The position numbers were made by a program, and so were the translations under genes. Under the pieces are notes generated by a model that searched no databases, was not told the DNA's origin, and worked only from the letters and a program-made list of their open reading frames with translations. A stretch of DNA of 64,000 bases from Bacteroidales bacterium (GTDB lineage: Bacteria; Bacteroidota; Bacteroidia; Bacteroidales; P3): NCBI GenBank assembly GCA_017480225.1, contig JAFVBB010000015.1, forward strand, positions 38,853-102,852, given 5' to 3'. Of this stretch, positions 2,079-57,910 are shown piece after piece; position 1 is the stretch's first letter; every line of letters starts with the position of its first letter.

Positions 2079-2181
2079 CCGCCTGTTCTCCGATTGATGT
2101 CCGATTGTTCTTCGATTGTTCTTCGATTTATAATCGGAGAACAATCGAAGAACAATCGGAGAACAATCGAAGAACAGACGG
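2079..2181 (+). repeat. family A 11-bp-unit inverted-repeat element, copy 1 (103 bp)
   Basis: Ends are CCGCCT and AGACGG. The left arm has four 11-bp units: GTTCTCCGATT, the variant GATGTCCGATT, GTTCTTCGATT and GTTCTTCGAT. The centre is TTATA. The right arm has four inverted units (ATCGGAGAAC, then AATCGAAGAAC, AATCGGAGAAC, AATCGAAGAAC). It lies between aspS and the tRNA-Cys terminator. The right flank GTGTTGACA is shared with copies 2 and 4 and, inverted, with copy 5. In RNA or single-stranded DNA it would form a stem of about 49 bp with scattered mismatches. Confidence 0.9.
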
Positions 2182-2331
2182 TGTTGACATTGCCTTTACA
2201 CCCCGACAGACTGGCTTACAGTACGTTACGCAATAAATTATTCATAACTACCTGTTATACAGGGAATATAGAGCAACCATTGATGCTCCCTCCGCATCAG
2301 CTGGCGGGCACTGCCCCCTGCCCTGCCGGGC

Positions 2332-2367
2332 AAAAGAAAAGAGCCTCCAACCACCGGTTGAAGGCTC
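2332..2367 (-). terminator. Rho-independent terminator of tRNA-Cys
   Basis: Read on the minus strand, the stem GAGCCTTCAACC pairs with GGTTGGAGGCTC around a short loop and is followed by TTTTCTTTTG. It begins 10 nt after the tRNA 3' end. Confidence 0.85.
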
Positions 2368-2377
2368 CTGCTCATCG

Positions 2378-2448
2378 AGGTCGCTTCCGGATTTGAACCG
2401 GAGTAGCAGGTTTTGCAGACCTGTGCCTAGCCCCTCGGCCAAACGACC
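2378..2448 (-). tRNA. tRNA-Cys (GCA)
   Basis: 71 nt on the minus strand. The acceptor stem GGTCGTT pairs with AGCGACC; discriminator U; the anticodon arm CAGGT-CTGCAAA-ACCTG gives anticodon GCA; the T-arm is TCCGG-TTCAAAT-CCGGA. No CCA is encoded. It has its own promoter and terminator, so it is a single-gene transcript between ettA and aspS. Confidence 0.93.
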
Positions 2449-2474
2449 CTCTTTCGCTTTCACAAAAGCGAGTG

Positions 2475-2506
2475 CAAAATTACACCTTTTTACAGTTCTG
2501 ACCAAA
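2475..2506 (-). promoter_or_regulatory. tRNA-Cys promoter
   Basis: On the minus strand, TTTG (complement of 2503-2506) and TAATTTTG (complement of 2475-2482) are 20 nt apart, matching the Bacteroidota TTTG / TAnnTTTG promoter. The tRNA 5' end is 26 nt downstream of the -7 box. Confidence 0.75.
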
Positions 2507-2627
2507 TTTTTTTGGTCACTTTTTCGCAAAGGCCTGATTTTGCACTCGTTTAATTTGCCATTGGCAGTGCGCCACCTGCGCCACAACGCGCCACGGCGCC
2601 CGCAGCGGGGCTTGTTTCGGCGCAGGG

Positions 2628-4298
2628 CTATGCCATCAGTTTCTTGTAGCGTATGCGGTGCGGGGTGTCGTCGCCGAGCCTCTTGCGGCGGTTCTCCTCA
2701 TACTCGGTGTACGAGCCTTCGAAGAAGTAGACCTGCGAGTCTCCCTCGAAGGCAAGGATGTGGGTGCAGATGCGGTCGAGGAACCAGCGGTCGTGGCTGA
2801 TGACCACGGCGCAGCCCGCGAAGTTCTCCAAGCCTTCCTCCAACGCGCGCATGGTGTTGACGTCGATGTCGTTGGTCGGCTCGTCGAGCAGCAGCACGTT
2901 GGCCTCGCTCTTGAGCGTCAATGCCAGGTGCAGGCGGTTGCGCTCACCGCCGCTGAGCACGCCGACCTTCTTGCTCTGGTCGGTGCCGCCGAAATTGAAG
3001 CGGCTGATGTAGGCGCGGCTGTTCACCAGCCTGCCGCCCACCTGCAGGTTCTCGTTGCCACCACTGATCATCCCGTAGACGCTCTTTTCTGGGTCGATCT
3101 CGGCGTGCTGCTGGTCGATATAGCCTATCTTGACCGTCTCGCCCACCTCGAAGGAGCCGCTGTCGGGCTGCTCCAGACCCATAATGAGGCGGAAGAGGGT
3201 GGTCTTGCCGCAGCCGTTGGGGCCGATGACGCCCACGATGCCCGCCGGGGGCAGCGAAAAGGTGAGGTTCTCGTAGAGCAGCTTGTCGCCGAAGGCCTTG
3301 CTCACTCCCACAGCCTCGAGCACCTTGTTGCCGAGCCTGGGGCCGTTGGGAATGAATATCTCAAGGTTCTGCTCCTTTTCCTTCACATCCTCGTTGAGCA
3401 GGCGGTCGTAGGCGGCCAGTCGCGCCTTGCCCTTGGCGTGGCGTGCCTTGGGTGCCATGCGGACCCATTCCAGCTCGCGCTGGAGGGTCTTGCGGCGGCG
3501 GCTCTCCTGCTTCTCCTCCATGGCCAGGCGGGCGGTCTTCTGCTCGAGCCAGCTGCTGTAGTTGCCCTTCCAGGGTATGCCCTCGCCGCGGTCGAGCTCA
3601 AGGATCCAGCCCGCCACGTGGTCGAGGAAGTAGCGGTCGTGGGTCACGGCAATGACCGTGCCCTTGTACTGCTGCAGGTGCTGCTCCAGCCAGTCGATGC
3701 TTTCGGCGTCGAGGTGGTTGGTGGGCTCGTCGAGCAGCAGTATGTCAGGCTCCTGCAAGAGCAGGCGGCACAGCGCCACGCGACGCCGCTCGCCGCCGCT
3801 GAGGTTGCGCACCAGTTGGTCCTCGTCGGGGCAGCGCAGGGCGTCCATGGCTCGCTCCAGGCGCGCGTCGAGGTTCCAGGCATCGTGCTGCTCAAGCAGC
3901 TCGGTGAGCTCGCCCTGACGCTCAATCAACTTGTCGAAGTCGGCGTCGGGGTCGGCGAAAGCGTTGTTCACCTCGTCGTACTCGCGCAGCCACCCAACCA
4001 CGTCGGCCACGGCCTCCTGAACCACCTCTTTCACCGTCTTGTCCTCGTCGAGCCGGGGCTCCTGCTCCAGGTAGCCAACCGAGTAGCCGGGCGAGAAGAC
4101 CACCTCGCCCTGGTAGTCCTTGTCGACGCCTGCTATTATTTTCATCAGCGATGACTTGCCGGAGCCGTTTAGGCCGATGATGCCAATCTTTGCCCCATAG
4201 AAGAAGCTGAGGTATATGTCTTTCAGTATCTGCCGGCTGGGCGGTATCAACTTGCCCACGCCCACCATTGAGAAGATTATTTTCTTGTCGTCTGCCAT
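2628..4298 (-). CDS. ettA: EttA-type ABC-F translational throttle ATPase
   Basis: 556 aa, the usual EttA length. Two soluble ABC ATPase domains lie in tandem with no membrane segments. Walker A motifs are GLNGSGKSS (near residue 42) and GPNGCGKTT in the second half. ABC signatures are LSGGERRRVAL and LSGGERNRLHL; Walker B motifs are DILLLDEPTNHLD and NVLLLDEPTNDID. The interdomain linker contains the basic segment MAPKARHAKGKARLAAYD typical of EttA. Known role: binding at the ribosomal E site and gating elongation according to ATP/ADP ratio. A terminator hairpin sits between it and the upstream gene, and no clean promoter box is visible between the two. Confidence 0.93.
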   Translation of the reverse strand: MADDKKIIFSMVGVGKLIPPSRQILKDIYLSFFYGAKIGIIGLNGSGKSSLMKIIAGVDKDYQGEVVFSPGYSVGYLEQEPRLDEDKTVKEVVQEAVADVVGWLREYDEVNNAFADPDADFDKLIERQGELTELLEQHDAWNLDARLERAMDALRCPDEDQLVRNLSGGERRRVALCRLLLQEPDILLLDEPTNHLDAESIDWLEQHLQQYKGTVIAVTHDRYFLDHVAGWILELDRGEGIPWKGNYSSWLEQKTARLAMEEKQESRRRKTLQRELEWVRMAPKARHAKGKARLAAYDRLLNEDVKEKEQNLEIFIPNGPRLGNKVLEAVGVSKAFGDKLLYENLTFSLPPAGIVGVIGPNGCGKTTLFRLIMGLEQPDSGSFEVGETVKIGYIDQQHAEIDPEKSVYGMISGGNENLQVGGRLVNSRAYISRFNFGGTDQSKKVGVLSGGERNRLHLALTLKSEANVLLLDEPTNDIDVNTMRALEEGLENFAGCAVVISHDRWFLDRICTHILAFEGDSQVYFFEGSYTEYEENRRKRLGDDTPHRIRYKKLMA

Positions 4299-4310
4299 AG
4301 TGTTGTGAAT

Positions 4311-56885: not shown

Positions 56886-56909
56886 AATTGTGACGTGATG
56901 TTTCGTCGG

Positions 56910-56917
56910 CAAAGTTA
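56910..56917 (-). promoter_or_regulatory. dnaE promoter (-7 box)
   Basis: Minus-strand TAACTTTG, 24 nt before the dnaE ATG; no clear -33 box. Confidence 0.55.
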
Positions 56918-56954
56918 CAACATTTTTGCGACACCCTGGCGAATGTTGATAAAT

Positions 56955-56998
56955 AAAAAGACAAGGCGGGCGCCCGGCTCATCGCCGTGGCGCCCGCC
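56955..56998 (-). terminator. terminator after the lipoprotein gene at 57017
   Basis: On the minus strand GGCGGGCGCC...GGCGCCCGCC is a 10-bp G+C stem followed by TTGTCTTTTTATTT. Confidence 0.85.
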
Positions 56999-57016
56999 AT
57001 CGCTGCCCCTGAGGGC

Positions 57017-57565
57017 CTACTTCCGCTTGAAGGTGAGCGAGCTCTTGCCGAACATGTCAACCATGAACTCCGCGTCCTCAGCGTCGTTGGGGGTGACTGC
57101 CAGGGTCTTGTCGTCCCTGTTGTAGCTCATGTCAAGGACCATAATGAGCTCCGTGCCGTCGTAGTCAGTGCCCTCATCGACATAGATCGAGCCCTCCTCA
57201 CCGTCGAAAGTGTAGGTGAATGAAGTGGTGTCGCCCTGGACAAGCCAGTCGAGCTCCTCCTGTATGAACTCCGGCAGCCGCTCCGCGCCCTTGATGGCCA
57301 TGTCCGACTCCCACCTGCCCTCCGTGGCGTTGGTGAAGGTCAGATTAACGGTCATCTGCGCGATGACCTTGCCACCCAGCAGATTCATTATCCTTTCGGC
57401 CAACTCACTCTCCTCGTCGAGGAAAATATCGGTAAACACCTCGGTCATGTCAACATCGTTGACACTGCTCCACTGGGTCGACTCAAGTTTCAGTTCCTTC
57501 TTGCAGCCTGCGAAGAGCAGCATGGCTCCGGCCGCAAATGCCATCATGACAGTTTTTGCTTTCAT
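57017..57565 (-). CDS. lipoprotein of unknown function
   Basis: 182 aa. The N-terminus MKAKTVMMAFAAGAMLLFAG ends at lipobox Cys21 (FAGCKKELKLE). The mature part is acidic and has the alternating strands of a lipocalin-like or small beta-sandwich fold: IAQMTVNLTFTNATEGRWES; TTSFTYTFDGEEGSIYVDEG; ELIMVLDMSYNRDDKTLAV. No family can be assigned with confidence. It stands alone, with a terminator after it and promoter box TATATTTG upstream. Confidence 0.78.
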   Translation of the reverse strand: MKAKTVMMAFAAGAMLLFAGCKKELKLESTQWSSVNDVDMTEVFTDIFLDEESELAERIMNLLGGKVIAQMTVNLTFTNATEGRWESDMAIKGAERLPEFIQEELDWLVQGDTTSFTYTFDGEEGSIYVDEGTDYDGTELIMVLDMSYNRDDKTLAVTPNDAEDAEFMVDMFGKSSLTFKRK

Positions 57566-57638
57566 TGTTGCTGTTATTTTGTTGTTTTACTTTGTTCCAC
57601 AGTATGTTGGCAGCCGCGCCTCCGCCTGTTTACGAATG

Positions 57639-57646
57639 CAAATATA
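57639..57646 (-). promoter_or_regulatory. promoter of the lipoprotein gene (-7 box)
   Basis: Minus-strand TATATTTG, 73 nt before the ATG at 57565; a TTTG is present further upstream (57673-57676) but at a wide 26-nt spacing. Confidence 0.45.
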
Positions 57647-57796
57647 CGAATTATTCCTCAAACGGCAGCCCACAAATATCAATTCGCCGCCCGACATTGC
57701 CCCTCCCCAACACCAGTGGAAGACAACCACTTACAGCAACCAACCTTCATACATGACTGATAACCAGACAGGAAAAGCACCAACACCATGTCAACA

Positions 57797-57910
57797 CCGT
57801 CTGTTCTTCGATTGTTCTCCGATTGTTCTTCGATTGTTCTTCGATTTAATATCGGAGAACAATCGGAGAACAATCGAAGAACAATCGGAGAACAATCGAA
57901 GAACAGACGG
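57797..57910 (-). repeat. family A 11-bp-unit inverted-repeat element, copy 5 (114 bp), reversed orientation
   Basis: Ends CCGTCT / AGACGG. Four left units, centre TTAAT, five right units. The GTGTTGACA flank is on the left as its complement (TGTCAACACC), the opposite of copies 1, 2 and 4, and the right flank GGCCCTGGCATTGCC matches the complement of the left flank of copy 2 (GGCAATACCAAGGCC). So the element has distinguishable ends and this copy is inverted. It lies downstream of manA. Confidence 0.92.

Follow-up and report, generated by a model that had tools for sequence, protein, structure and literature searches.

Dispersed inverted arrays of 11-bp units in an uncultured Bacteroidales genus resemble non-autonomous mobile repeats

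Introduction

Porphyromonas gingivalis belongs to the Bacteroidales, the order that also contains the uncultured genus from which the DNA described here was taken: a 64-kb stretch of contig JAFVBB010000015.1 (the window, by which we mean the whole stretch analysed), in which a first, sequence-only reading had noticed five dispersed inverted arrays of an 11-bp unit. That reading could name no described family for them, in agreement with the literature: among open-licence papers in PubMed Central (PMC) no 11-bp family was found, only looser analogues. The BrickBuilt miniature inverted-repeat transposable element (MITE) of P. gingivalis is made of 23-nt direct units, is present in 19 copies in strain ATCC 33277 and has terminal inverted repeats like those of ISPg1 and ISPg9 (PMC4596501). 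The repetitive extragenic palindromes (REPs) tagged with GTAG or CGTC measure 20–40 bp and are found for the most part 3' of genes, where the open reading frames on either side are tandem or convergent; the CGTC class is reported from five phyla, including Bacteroidetes, and has no dedicated transposase (PMC3733652). Intergenic heptamer repeats of the TAACTGA type are 7-bp direct arrays which, in the main species reported, mostly stand just upstream of start codons (PMC4679880).

The elements described here share with BrickBuilt the arrangement of tandem minisatellite units in a dispersed intergenic element, the leader and tail segments, a range of one species plus close kin and the absence of a transposase remnant inside (PMC4596501). 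They differ in that their 11-bp units are mirrored into a hairpin, in a copy number of about 130 and in a period that is constant across the genus while the units change; neither 23-nt direct units nor ISPg1/ISPg9-like ends were found, the ends being compared by eye only (PMC4596501). Like REPs, whose families are often species-specific, they are high-copy intergenic palindromes; unlike REPs, they have arms of about 50 bp and stand frequently in divergent gaps, and 11-bp units go unmentioned for REPs in the available sections of that source (PMC3733652). The CGTC in the arm ends here (CCGTCTG) is paired, whereas the REP tag is unpaired (PMC3733652). With the heptamer repeats, reported in five Bacteroidetes, they have in common many short intergenic tandem arrays, but not the 11-bp step or the mirrored arms, neither of which is mentioned for heptamers in the portion of the report at hand (PMC4679880). 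Of the features of a MITE, they show small size, about 130 copies, intergenic position, lack of coding capacity and one empty site (that of element 3, in 21 of 23 relatives); no target-site duplication was found. The arms are inverted.

We consider it probable that the elements belong to a dispersed, non-autonomous DNA repeat whose core is a palindromic minisatellite and which resembles MITEs and REPs. Four options had been offered at the outset, i.e., small non-autonomous mobile elements, protein-binding arrays, stabilisers of RNA 3' ends and cruciform sites. The first is the best supported, given some 130 dispersed copies, one gained copy and positions that are mostly unshared even among congeners with the same unit; protein-binding arrays and cruciform sites are conceivable, and the RNA stabilisers found no support.

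Results

Five inverted arrays in the window

The five elements stand at the positions listed here, in the form previously described (6-nt ends, an arm of four units, a 5-nt centre and an inverted arm of four or five units) and with the 11-bp period of the units borne out. The tail motifs listed with them are described below.

2079..2181, plus strand: element 1, inverted array of 4+4 units, 103 bp, with the GATGTCC head-side variant; the 3' end of tRNA-Cys is 202 bp away
2211..2230, plus strand: tail motif of element 1, CTGGCTTACAGTACGTTACG, 35 bp outside the array
13499..13601, minus strand: element 2, inverted array of 4+4 units, oriented by its tail at the left
13450..13469, minus strand: tail motif of element 2, TTGTATTTCAGCGTGTTATG
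20462..20564, strand unset: element 3, inverted array of 4+4 units, tail below the score cut
Gap of element 3: 257 bp, gained, between the thioesterase gene 20008-20397 (minus strand) and the histidine kinase gene 20655-21533 (minus strand)
44487..44600, plus strand: element 4, inverted array of 4+5 units, 114 bp, with the GATGTCC variant
44631..44650, plus strand: tail motif of element 4, CTGAAAACCAGCCAGTTACA, the offset-36 version
57797..57910, minus strand: element 5, inverted array of 4+5 units, 114 bp, tail at the left
57748..57767, minus strand: tail motif of element 5, CTGGTTATCAGTCATGTATG

The arms measure 52–59 nt and are 88–94% complementary. The five arrays far exceed chance; a dimer pattern with up to three mismatches matched 32 times in the window and not once in any of 100 dinucleotide shuffles. 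The two unit versions first described, TTC and TCC, are both present, together with a third, GATGTCCGATT, in copies 1 and 4. The exclusion of a CRISPR array holds, as the units stand head to tail and spacers are absent; so does that of an ordinary terminator, since the hairpin base of the five copies lacks a T-run and 24 of the 65 copies examined genome-wide are divergent in placement.

Copy number and anatomy in the source genome

The source genome (G000; 2.05 Mb in 22 contigs, 97.6% complete) holds about 130 copies, as counted by a near-palindromic centre pattern with 130 forward and 131 reverse matches; an end pattern gave 93 and 98, and the dimer 267 and 300. From 40 stretches of this genome and the window, 65 elements of at least three units were extracted with their flanks, while 10 of 75 clusters, being single-unit, were left out of the element counts. 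Array length, including the 6-nt ends, is 81–114 bp with a median of 103. The element extends past its arms: an 11-bp-phased flank comes next, from AGACGG[TG/CC]TTGACATTG onward, and 35 or 36 bp out lies a conserved tail motif of the type CTGGTTTTCAGTnnnTTACA, which was found in 42 of the 65 copies, always on one side and never on both. The offset is 35 bp in 30 of these 42 and 36 bp in 12; the score cut was the 98th percentile of random sites, and another six copies, whose score equalled the cut (five with offset 35), were counted as tail-less. From the array, flanks, tail and gained gap, the full element is estimated at about 200–250 bp.

For arm order and pairing 32 elements were taken, of which 29 could be parsed. 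The tail-side arm has the unit order TTCT (centre outward) in 25 of the 29, and the head-side arm is variable. Mean mismatches per unit, again read from the centre outward in the 40 copies that could be centred among the 42 with a scored tail, are 0.03, 0.00, 0.00 and 0.30 in the tail arm and 0.00, 0.20, 1.00 and 0.57 in the head arm. The centre is the most uniform part of the array. No RNA pair was predicted in 30 tails and their complementarity fell below its null; the dyad in the tail matrix is at most a sequence dyad.

Gain and turnover of copies

The gap between the kinase and thioesterase genes that contains element 3 was compared in 29 fetched congener loci, 23 of which have the same adjacent pair. 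Compared to 257 bp in the source, the gap is 3–109 bp in 21 of the 23, and the remaining two gaps (316 and 419 bp) hold other sequence. The kinase reading frame of the source is about 15 residues longer than the end conserved in most relatives. The short gap in 21 of 23 relatives shows that copies are gained; element 3 was gained in the source lineage. In one congener (G007, locus L161) the 419-bp gap carries inverted 7-bp repeats of the ATTAGGA type at both ends; the site seems to accept different inserts.

Turnover was followed in four cousin genomes, whose assignment to the genus is given in the next section. For RUG737, which uses the same unit as the source, 34 loci yielded 22 reciprocal best hits. 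On 5' sides, one array was shared, four were present in the source only and four in RUG737 only; on 3' sides, one was shared and two were in the source only. The adjoining genes often differ too, and some cousin contigs stop there. The red deer genome gave three hits with one shared 5' side, RGIG6769 six hits with none shared and RUG197 no hits. In addition, random stretches yielded 25 syntenic gaps, each no shorter than 120 bp; arrays were present in both genomes in 1 of them (0.49 expected), in one genome in 5 and in neither in 19. From the unshared RUG737 sides and the syntenic-gap counts it follows that most positions turn over and that a few look old. Adjacency between G000 and the congener G012 was uninformative, with only 26 reciprocal best hits. 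At L315 (9261-9583, G004) there is a tail-like motif, CTGTAAAACAGCCTGTTATGA, with no array detected, at a locus where G009 (L239) has array and motif; this is possibly a decayed element.

Distribution across the genus and beyond

None of the 60 relatives surveyed first, which included 36 congeners, had the exact dimer. When GTDB contigs were scanned for it, the matches listed included at least four rumen-type Bacteroidales (RUG737, Red_deer_4_mag_30, RGIG6769 and RUG197), which are taken as congeners because their AspS sequences, in part fragments only, are 87–93% identical to that of the source. Also among the matches listed were arrays in a Mediterranea metagenome-assembled genome (MAG), a lake Bacteroidales MAG (AspS 69% identical), Verrucomicrobia and Chloroflexi, which may represent kin, chance or convergence; restriction to the genus is not absolute. 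The exact dimer had no match in IMG/VR, and one copy searched against phage and plasmid records had none there.

Other members of the genus carry 11-bp arrays of other units. Of 29 congener aspS loci, two had less than 150 bp upstream and were set aside; 7 of the remaining 27 carry such arrays upstream of the gene, with units such as GTTCTTCAGTA, CGACCATCGTT, CATCTAGGACC and CAACTCCGAGT. A search for lag-11 arrays gave 17 in 11 of 20 congener species (20 kb each, 400 kb) and none in 261 kb from 20 other families (0.4–20 kb each). G012 alone has 32 arrays, of several families, in 400 kb, and the unit of its main family, TTACGSTAGTA, gives 66 and 63 matches in G012 and none in nine congeners. 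Eleven bp is not the sole repeat step of the genus; 7-bp and 8-bp arrays number 28 and 13 in the 400 kb of 20 genus species, versus 1 and 1 in the 261 kb of other families. Some of those at L232-L251 and L192-L211 look placed within genes or at their edges.

The tail motif was considered as an order-wide signal and rejected on pattern counts, which make it firm for the source genome only. Matches of a strict pattern lay near arrays in 12 of 12 cases in G000, 1 of 1 in G012, 1 of 2 in the 20 species and 0 of 4 in other families, and the cousins had no match; for a loose pattern the counts were 35 of 60, 7 of 44, 3 of 34, 0 of 41 and, in cousins, 2 of 24.

A shared core and nested units

Thirty unit types, aligned in all rotations and on both strands, share a weak core, ACGGAGTTGAT, of 6.00 bits, compared to a mean of 4.79 bits (standard deviation 0.19, maximum 5.38) in 200 shuffles with equal freedom. 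Thirty-two unit types had been listed, of which one made of N letters and one from a second G012 locus were dropped; a first run gave 6.14 bits, and the repeat with the equal-freedom null gave the 6.00 quoted here. Without the two G000 unit types the core scores 5.93 bits, and the abutting flanks of G000 arrays were excluded from the alignment. In those flanks, 59 of 65 copies have a unit that abuts the array in register with at most three mismatches to the core, 9 of them at both ends; among single random 11-mers, 0.18% come as close. The cousins show such a core-type unit at 32 of 73 array ends. The abutting, in-register flanks of core type show that species-specific units are nested within older genus-type units in one unbroken 11-bp register.

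Folding and arm matching

Predicted folds for four strands of three elements are near-complete hairpins and very stable, at -77 to -95 kcal/mol with z of -15 to -18. Twelve distinct family-A copies of G012 were compared. At three sites that vary among them, 26, 37 and 41 from the axis, the two arms mirror each other in all 12, with both arms changed in 4, 2 and 6 copies, respectively. Either selection for the hairpin or hairpin-templated correction would yield such sites, and the independent events behind them may be as few as three, the copies being related by descent.

Placement among genes

With genes called in our scripts by a custom hexamer-based caller, none of the 65 copies overlaps a called gene: 33 are tandem, 24 divergent and 7 convergent, and 1 has an unknown neighbour. 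In G012, 2 of 32 arrays overlap a called gene. The context of the copies is indistinguishable from that of array-free gaps of at least 150 bp (divergent versus convergent, Fisher p = 0.48). That each element lies downstream of at least one gene is true of the five window copies and fails genome-wide, given the 24 between divergent genes. The sequence TAnnTTTG, which we take to be the promoter box of this phylum, separates element from gene start in 45 of 82 5' flanks when the sense strand is read and in 9 when the antisense strand is read; it does not occur inside any of the 65 arrays. In the 24 divergent gaps it is found on at least one side in 20 and on both sides in 5. From this placement of promoter-like boxes, a good part of the copies probably lie outside the neighbouring transcripts, and the divergent copies speak against the proposal that they stabilise RNA 3' ends.

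Five of the 65 elements lie at most 500 bp from a tRNA gene; each follows the 3' end of that gene, and no called gene intervenes. The distances are 202 bp for 2085-2175 of the window, 112 bp for L087:8116, 250 bp for L088:3026, 203 bp for L101:3041 and 204 bp for L108:2973. An insertion preference downstream of tRNA genes is possible. At L118:2566-3214, the leader beyond the head side of the element resembles, by eye, a cobalamin riboswitch, and the element stands upstream of the promoter-like box of that leader.

SbcD and long palindromes

SbcD (TIGR00619) scored above cut-off in 18 of 41 genus genomes and gave any match in 23, with no match in G000, G012 or G023; in a control of 14 well-known genomes, 13 had a match and 8 were above cut-off. 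The pattern may reflect patchy loss of this DNA-repair nuclease. In random stretches, palindromes scoring at least 28 were found only in G000, G012 and G023, and most long hairpins have the 11-bp step (20 of 23 in genomes lacking SbcD, almost all of them from G000 and G012; 1 of 4 in SbcD-positive ones). Loss of SbcCD as a licence for long palindromes is not required, because 11-bp arrays occur independently of SbcD (in 12 of 21 negative genomes, not counting G000 and G012, and in 10 of 18 positive ones) and SbcD is above cut-off in each of the four cousins that have long hairpins. SbcD-negative genomes have a higher density of 7-bp and 8-bp arrays (p = 0.006, uncorrected for kinship).

Discussion

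As a dispersed DNA repeat, each element would consist of older, genus-wide flanks in 11-bp phase, a core of seven to nine newer units forming a near-perfect hairpin, and the one-sided tail motif. Copies would spread at the DNA level by machinery acting in trans, probably via a folded single strand or a cruciform. Hairpin-templated correction, together with slippage in one-turn (11-bp) steps, would match the arms and keep the units alike, and the extragenic location would reflect tolerance of insertions and not a regulatory task. Overall, the impression is of small DNA parasites or spacers forming a family that changes quickly.

Several observations weigh against such a history. Gain was seen at one source locus only, the other eight of nine elements with both flanking genes matched having no comparable adjacent pair, and the present data give no support for current movement of any copy. 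Some positions may be old, as in the shared gap L247/L318, where two species have different units and a third (L321) has, by eye, a sub-threshold array. The head end of the element has no sharp boundary. Across the 65 copies, target-site duplications of k = 3, 4, 5, 6 and 8 were sought and flank sharing never exceeded the maximum of 10 shuffled pairings, in a test made weak by the uncertain element boundaries. No mobilising gene turned up, although no genome-wide search for an autonomous partner was made. REPs with their associated tyrosine transposases (RAYTs) were rejected for the source genome, as PF01797 (Y1, IS200/IS605-type) had no match in an assembly that is 97.6% complete; the domain is present in 28 of the 41 genus genomes searched. 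Membership of the REP/RAYT system also fails on size (81–114 bp) and placement (24 divergent, 33 tandem, 7 convergent). Correction is the least sure step, being seen in G012 and not in the source genome: in G000, arm compensation was rejected, with 65 Watson-Crick pairs at the T/C (Y/R) site versus 67.2 in shuffled arms, and G012 has eight further variable sites where only one arm has changed, each in one to three copies; seven of them lie towards the outer ends and one close to the axis.

If the dispersed-repeat reading is right, the source genome has, roughly every 16 kb, a palindrome about 100 bp long, with kin in congeners, and a repeat class with conserved period and sequence turnover would be added to those described. 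Such a palindrome load is usually thought unstable in bacteria. The birth, spread and homogenisation of bacterial minisatellites would become testable, and likewise fold-back DNA copying in fixed one-turn steps. For metagenome assemblers there is a warning, since several cousin contigs stop inside such arrays.

Among the alternatives, a binding array remains a serious rival because core and period are kept, even if we think it unlikely. Here each unit would be a site for a nucleoid or transcription protein, the 11-bp step would bring the sites nearly onto one helix face, and the preference would drift between species. Consistent with this, the same period recurs in every family, the 30 unit types have the weak 6.00-bit core in common, 45 of 82 5' flanks have a promoter-like box separating copy from gene start, and the tail motif is conserved in sequence without covariation. 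Conversely, there is no excess of shared adjacency between orthologues (in small numbers), binding would work without variants mirrored from arm to arm, and the genes flanking the window copies are functionally unrelated (a class II tRNA synthetase, an ABC ATPase, a LuxR-type regulator, UvrA, a thioesterase, a kinase, an ion channel and a mannose isomerase).

Rather less likely, the elements belong to a genus-wide repeat class that inherits step length more than sequence, in which new units are born at the hairpin tip and older ones are pushed outward, so that each element is a layered record, with units of the genus type on the outside and those specific to the species within. This would call for a mechanism, whether nuclease, polymerase or recombinase, that measures one helical turn from the fold-back tip and rewrites the copies of the genome with the current unit.

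We regard it as improbable that the hairpin acts when transcribed, as a transcript-end stabiliser, a bidirectional terminator or a double-stranded RNA signal. An 11-bp step is one turn of A-form RNA, the predicted folds are very stable, and element 3, within a co-directional gene pair, is probably transcribed. On the strand read from tail to head in the 29 parsed copies, T:G pairs outnumber C:A pairs by 39 to 7, as if G-U pairs were tolerated, but just two unit positions account for 34 of the 39, in copies that share descent, and these are non-independent. Also telling against it are the 24 divergent copies versus 7 convergent ones, the lack of a T-run at the hairpin base and the promoter-like boxes that separate copies from gene starts, although just 5 of the 24 divergent gaps have a box on both sides. 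At gathering score, Rfam gives only tRNAs in the window, and for copies in five loci only sub-threshold, generic miRNA-like matches. RNA, terminator and SbcCD-loss explanations are weakened.

Equally doubtful are plain minisatellites arising by local replication slippage and fold-back repair, with no transposition and with gene conversion keeping copies similar: the genus is rich in 7-bp and 8-bp arrays too and homogeneity runs from the centre out, but the copies have common flanks and a one-sided tail at fixed offset, the whole element stands in a gene pair that is 3–109 bp apart in 21 of 23 relatives, and local slippage alone cannot give 130 dispersed copies of one unit.

Further features of the window

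Other 11-bp arrays in the window are as follows.

39389..39478, strand unset: second 11-bp array type, a short hairpin plus direct units AGGAGTTGAGT, near the genus core unit
51841..51895, strand unset: further 11-bp array of direct units, e.g., CCATCTCCTAC, followed by a small hairpin
51809..51826, minus strand: tail half-site TGATTTACAGCGTGTTAT beside the 51841 array

Finally, two neighbouring and very long open frames, of 2732 and 2925 aa, occupy 22167-30365 and 30401-39178 on the minus strand.

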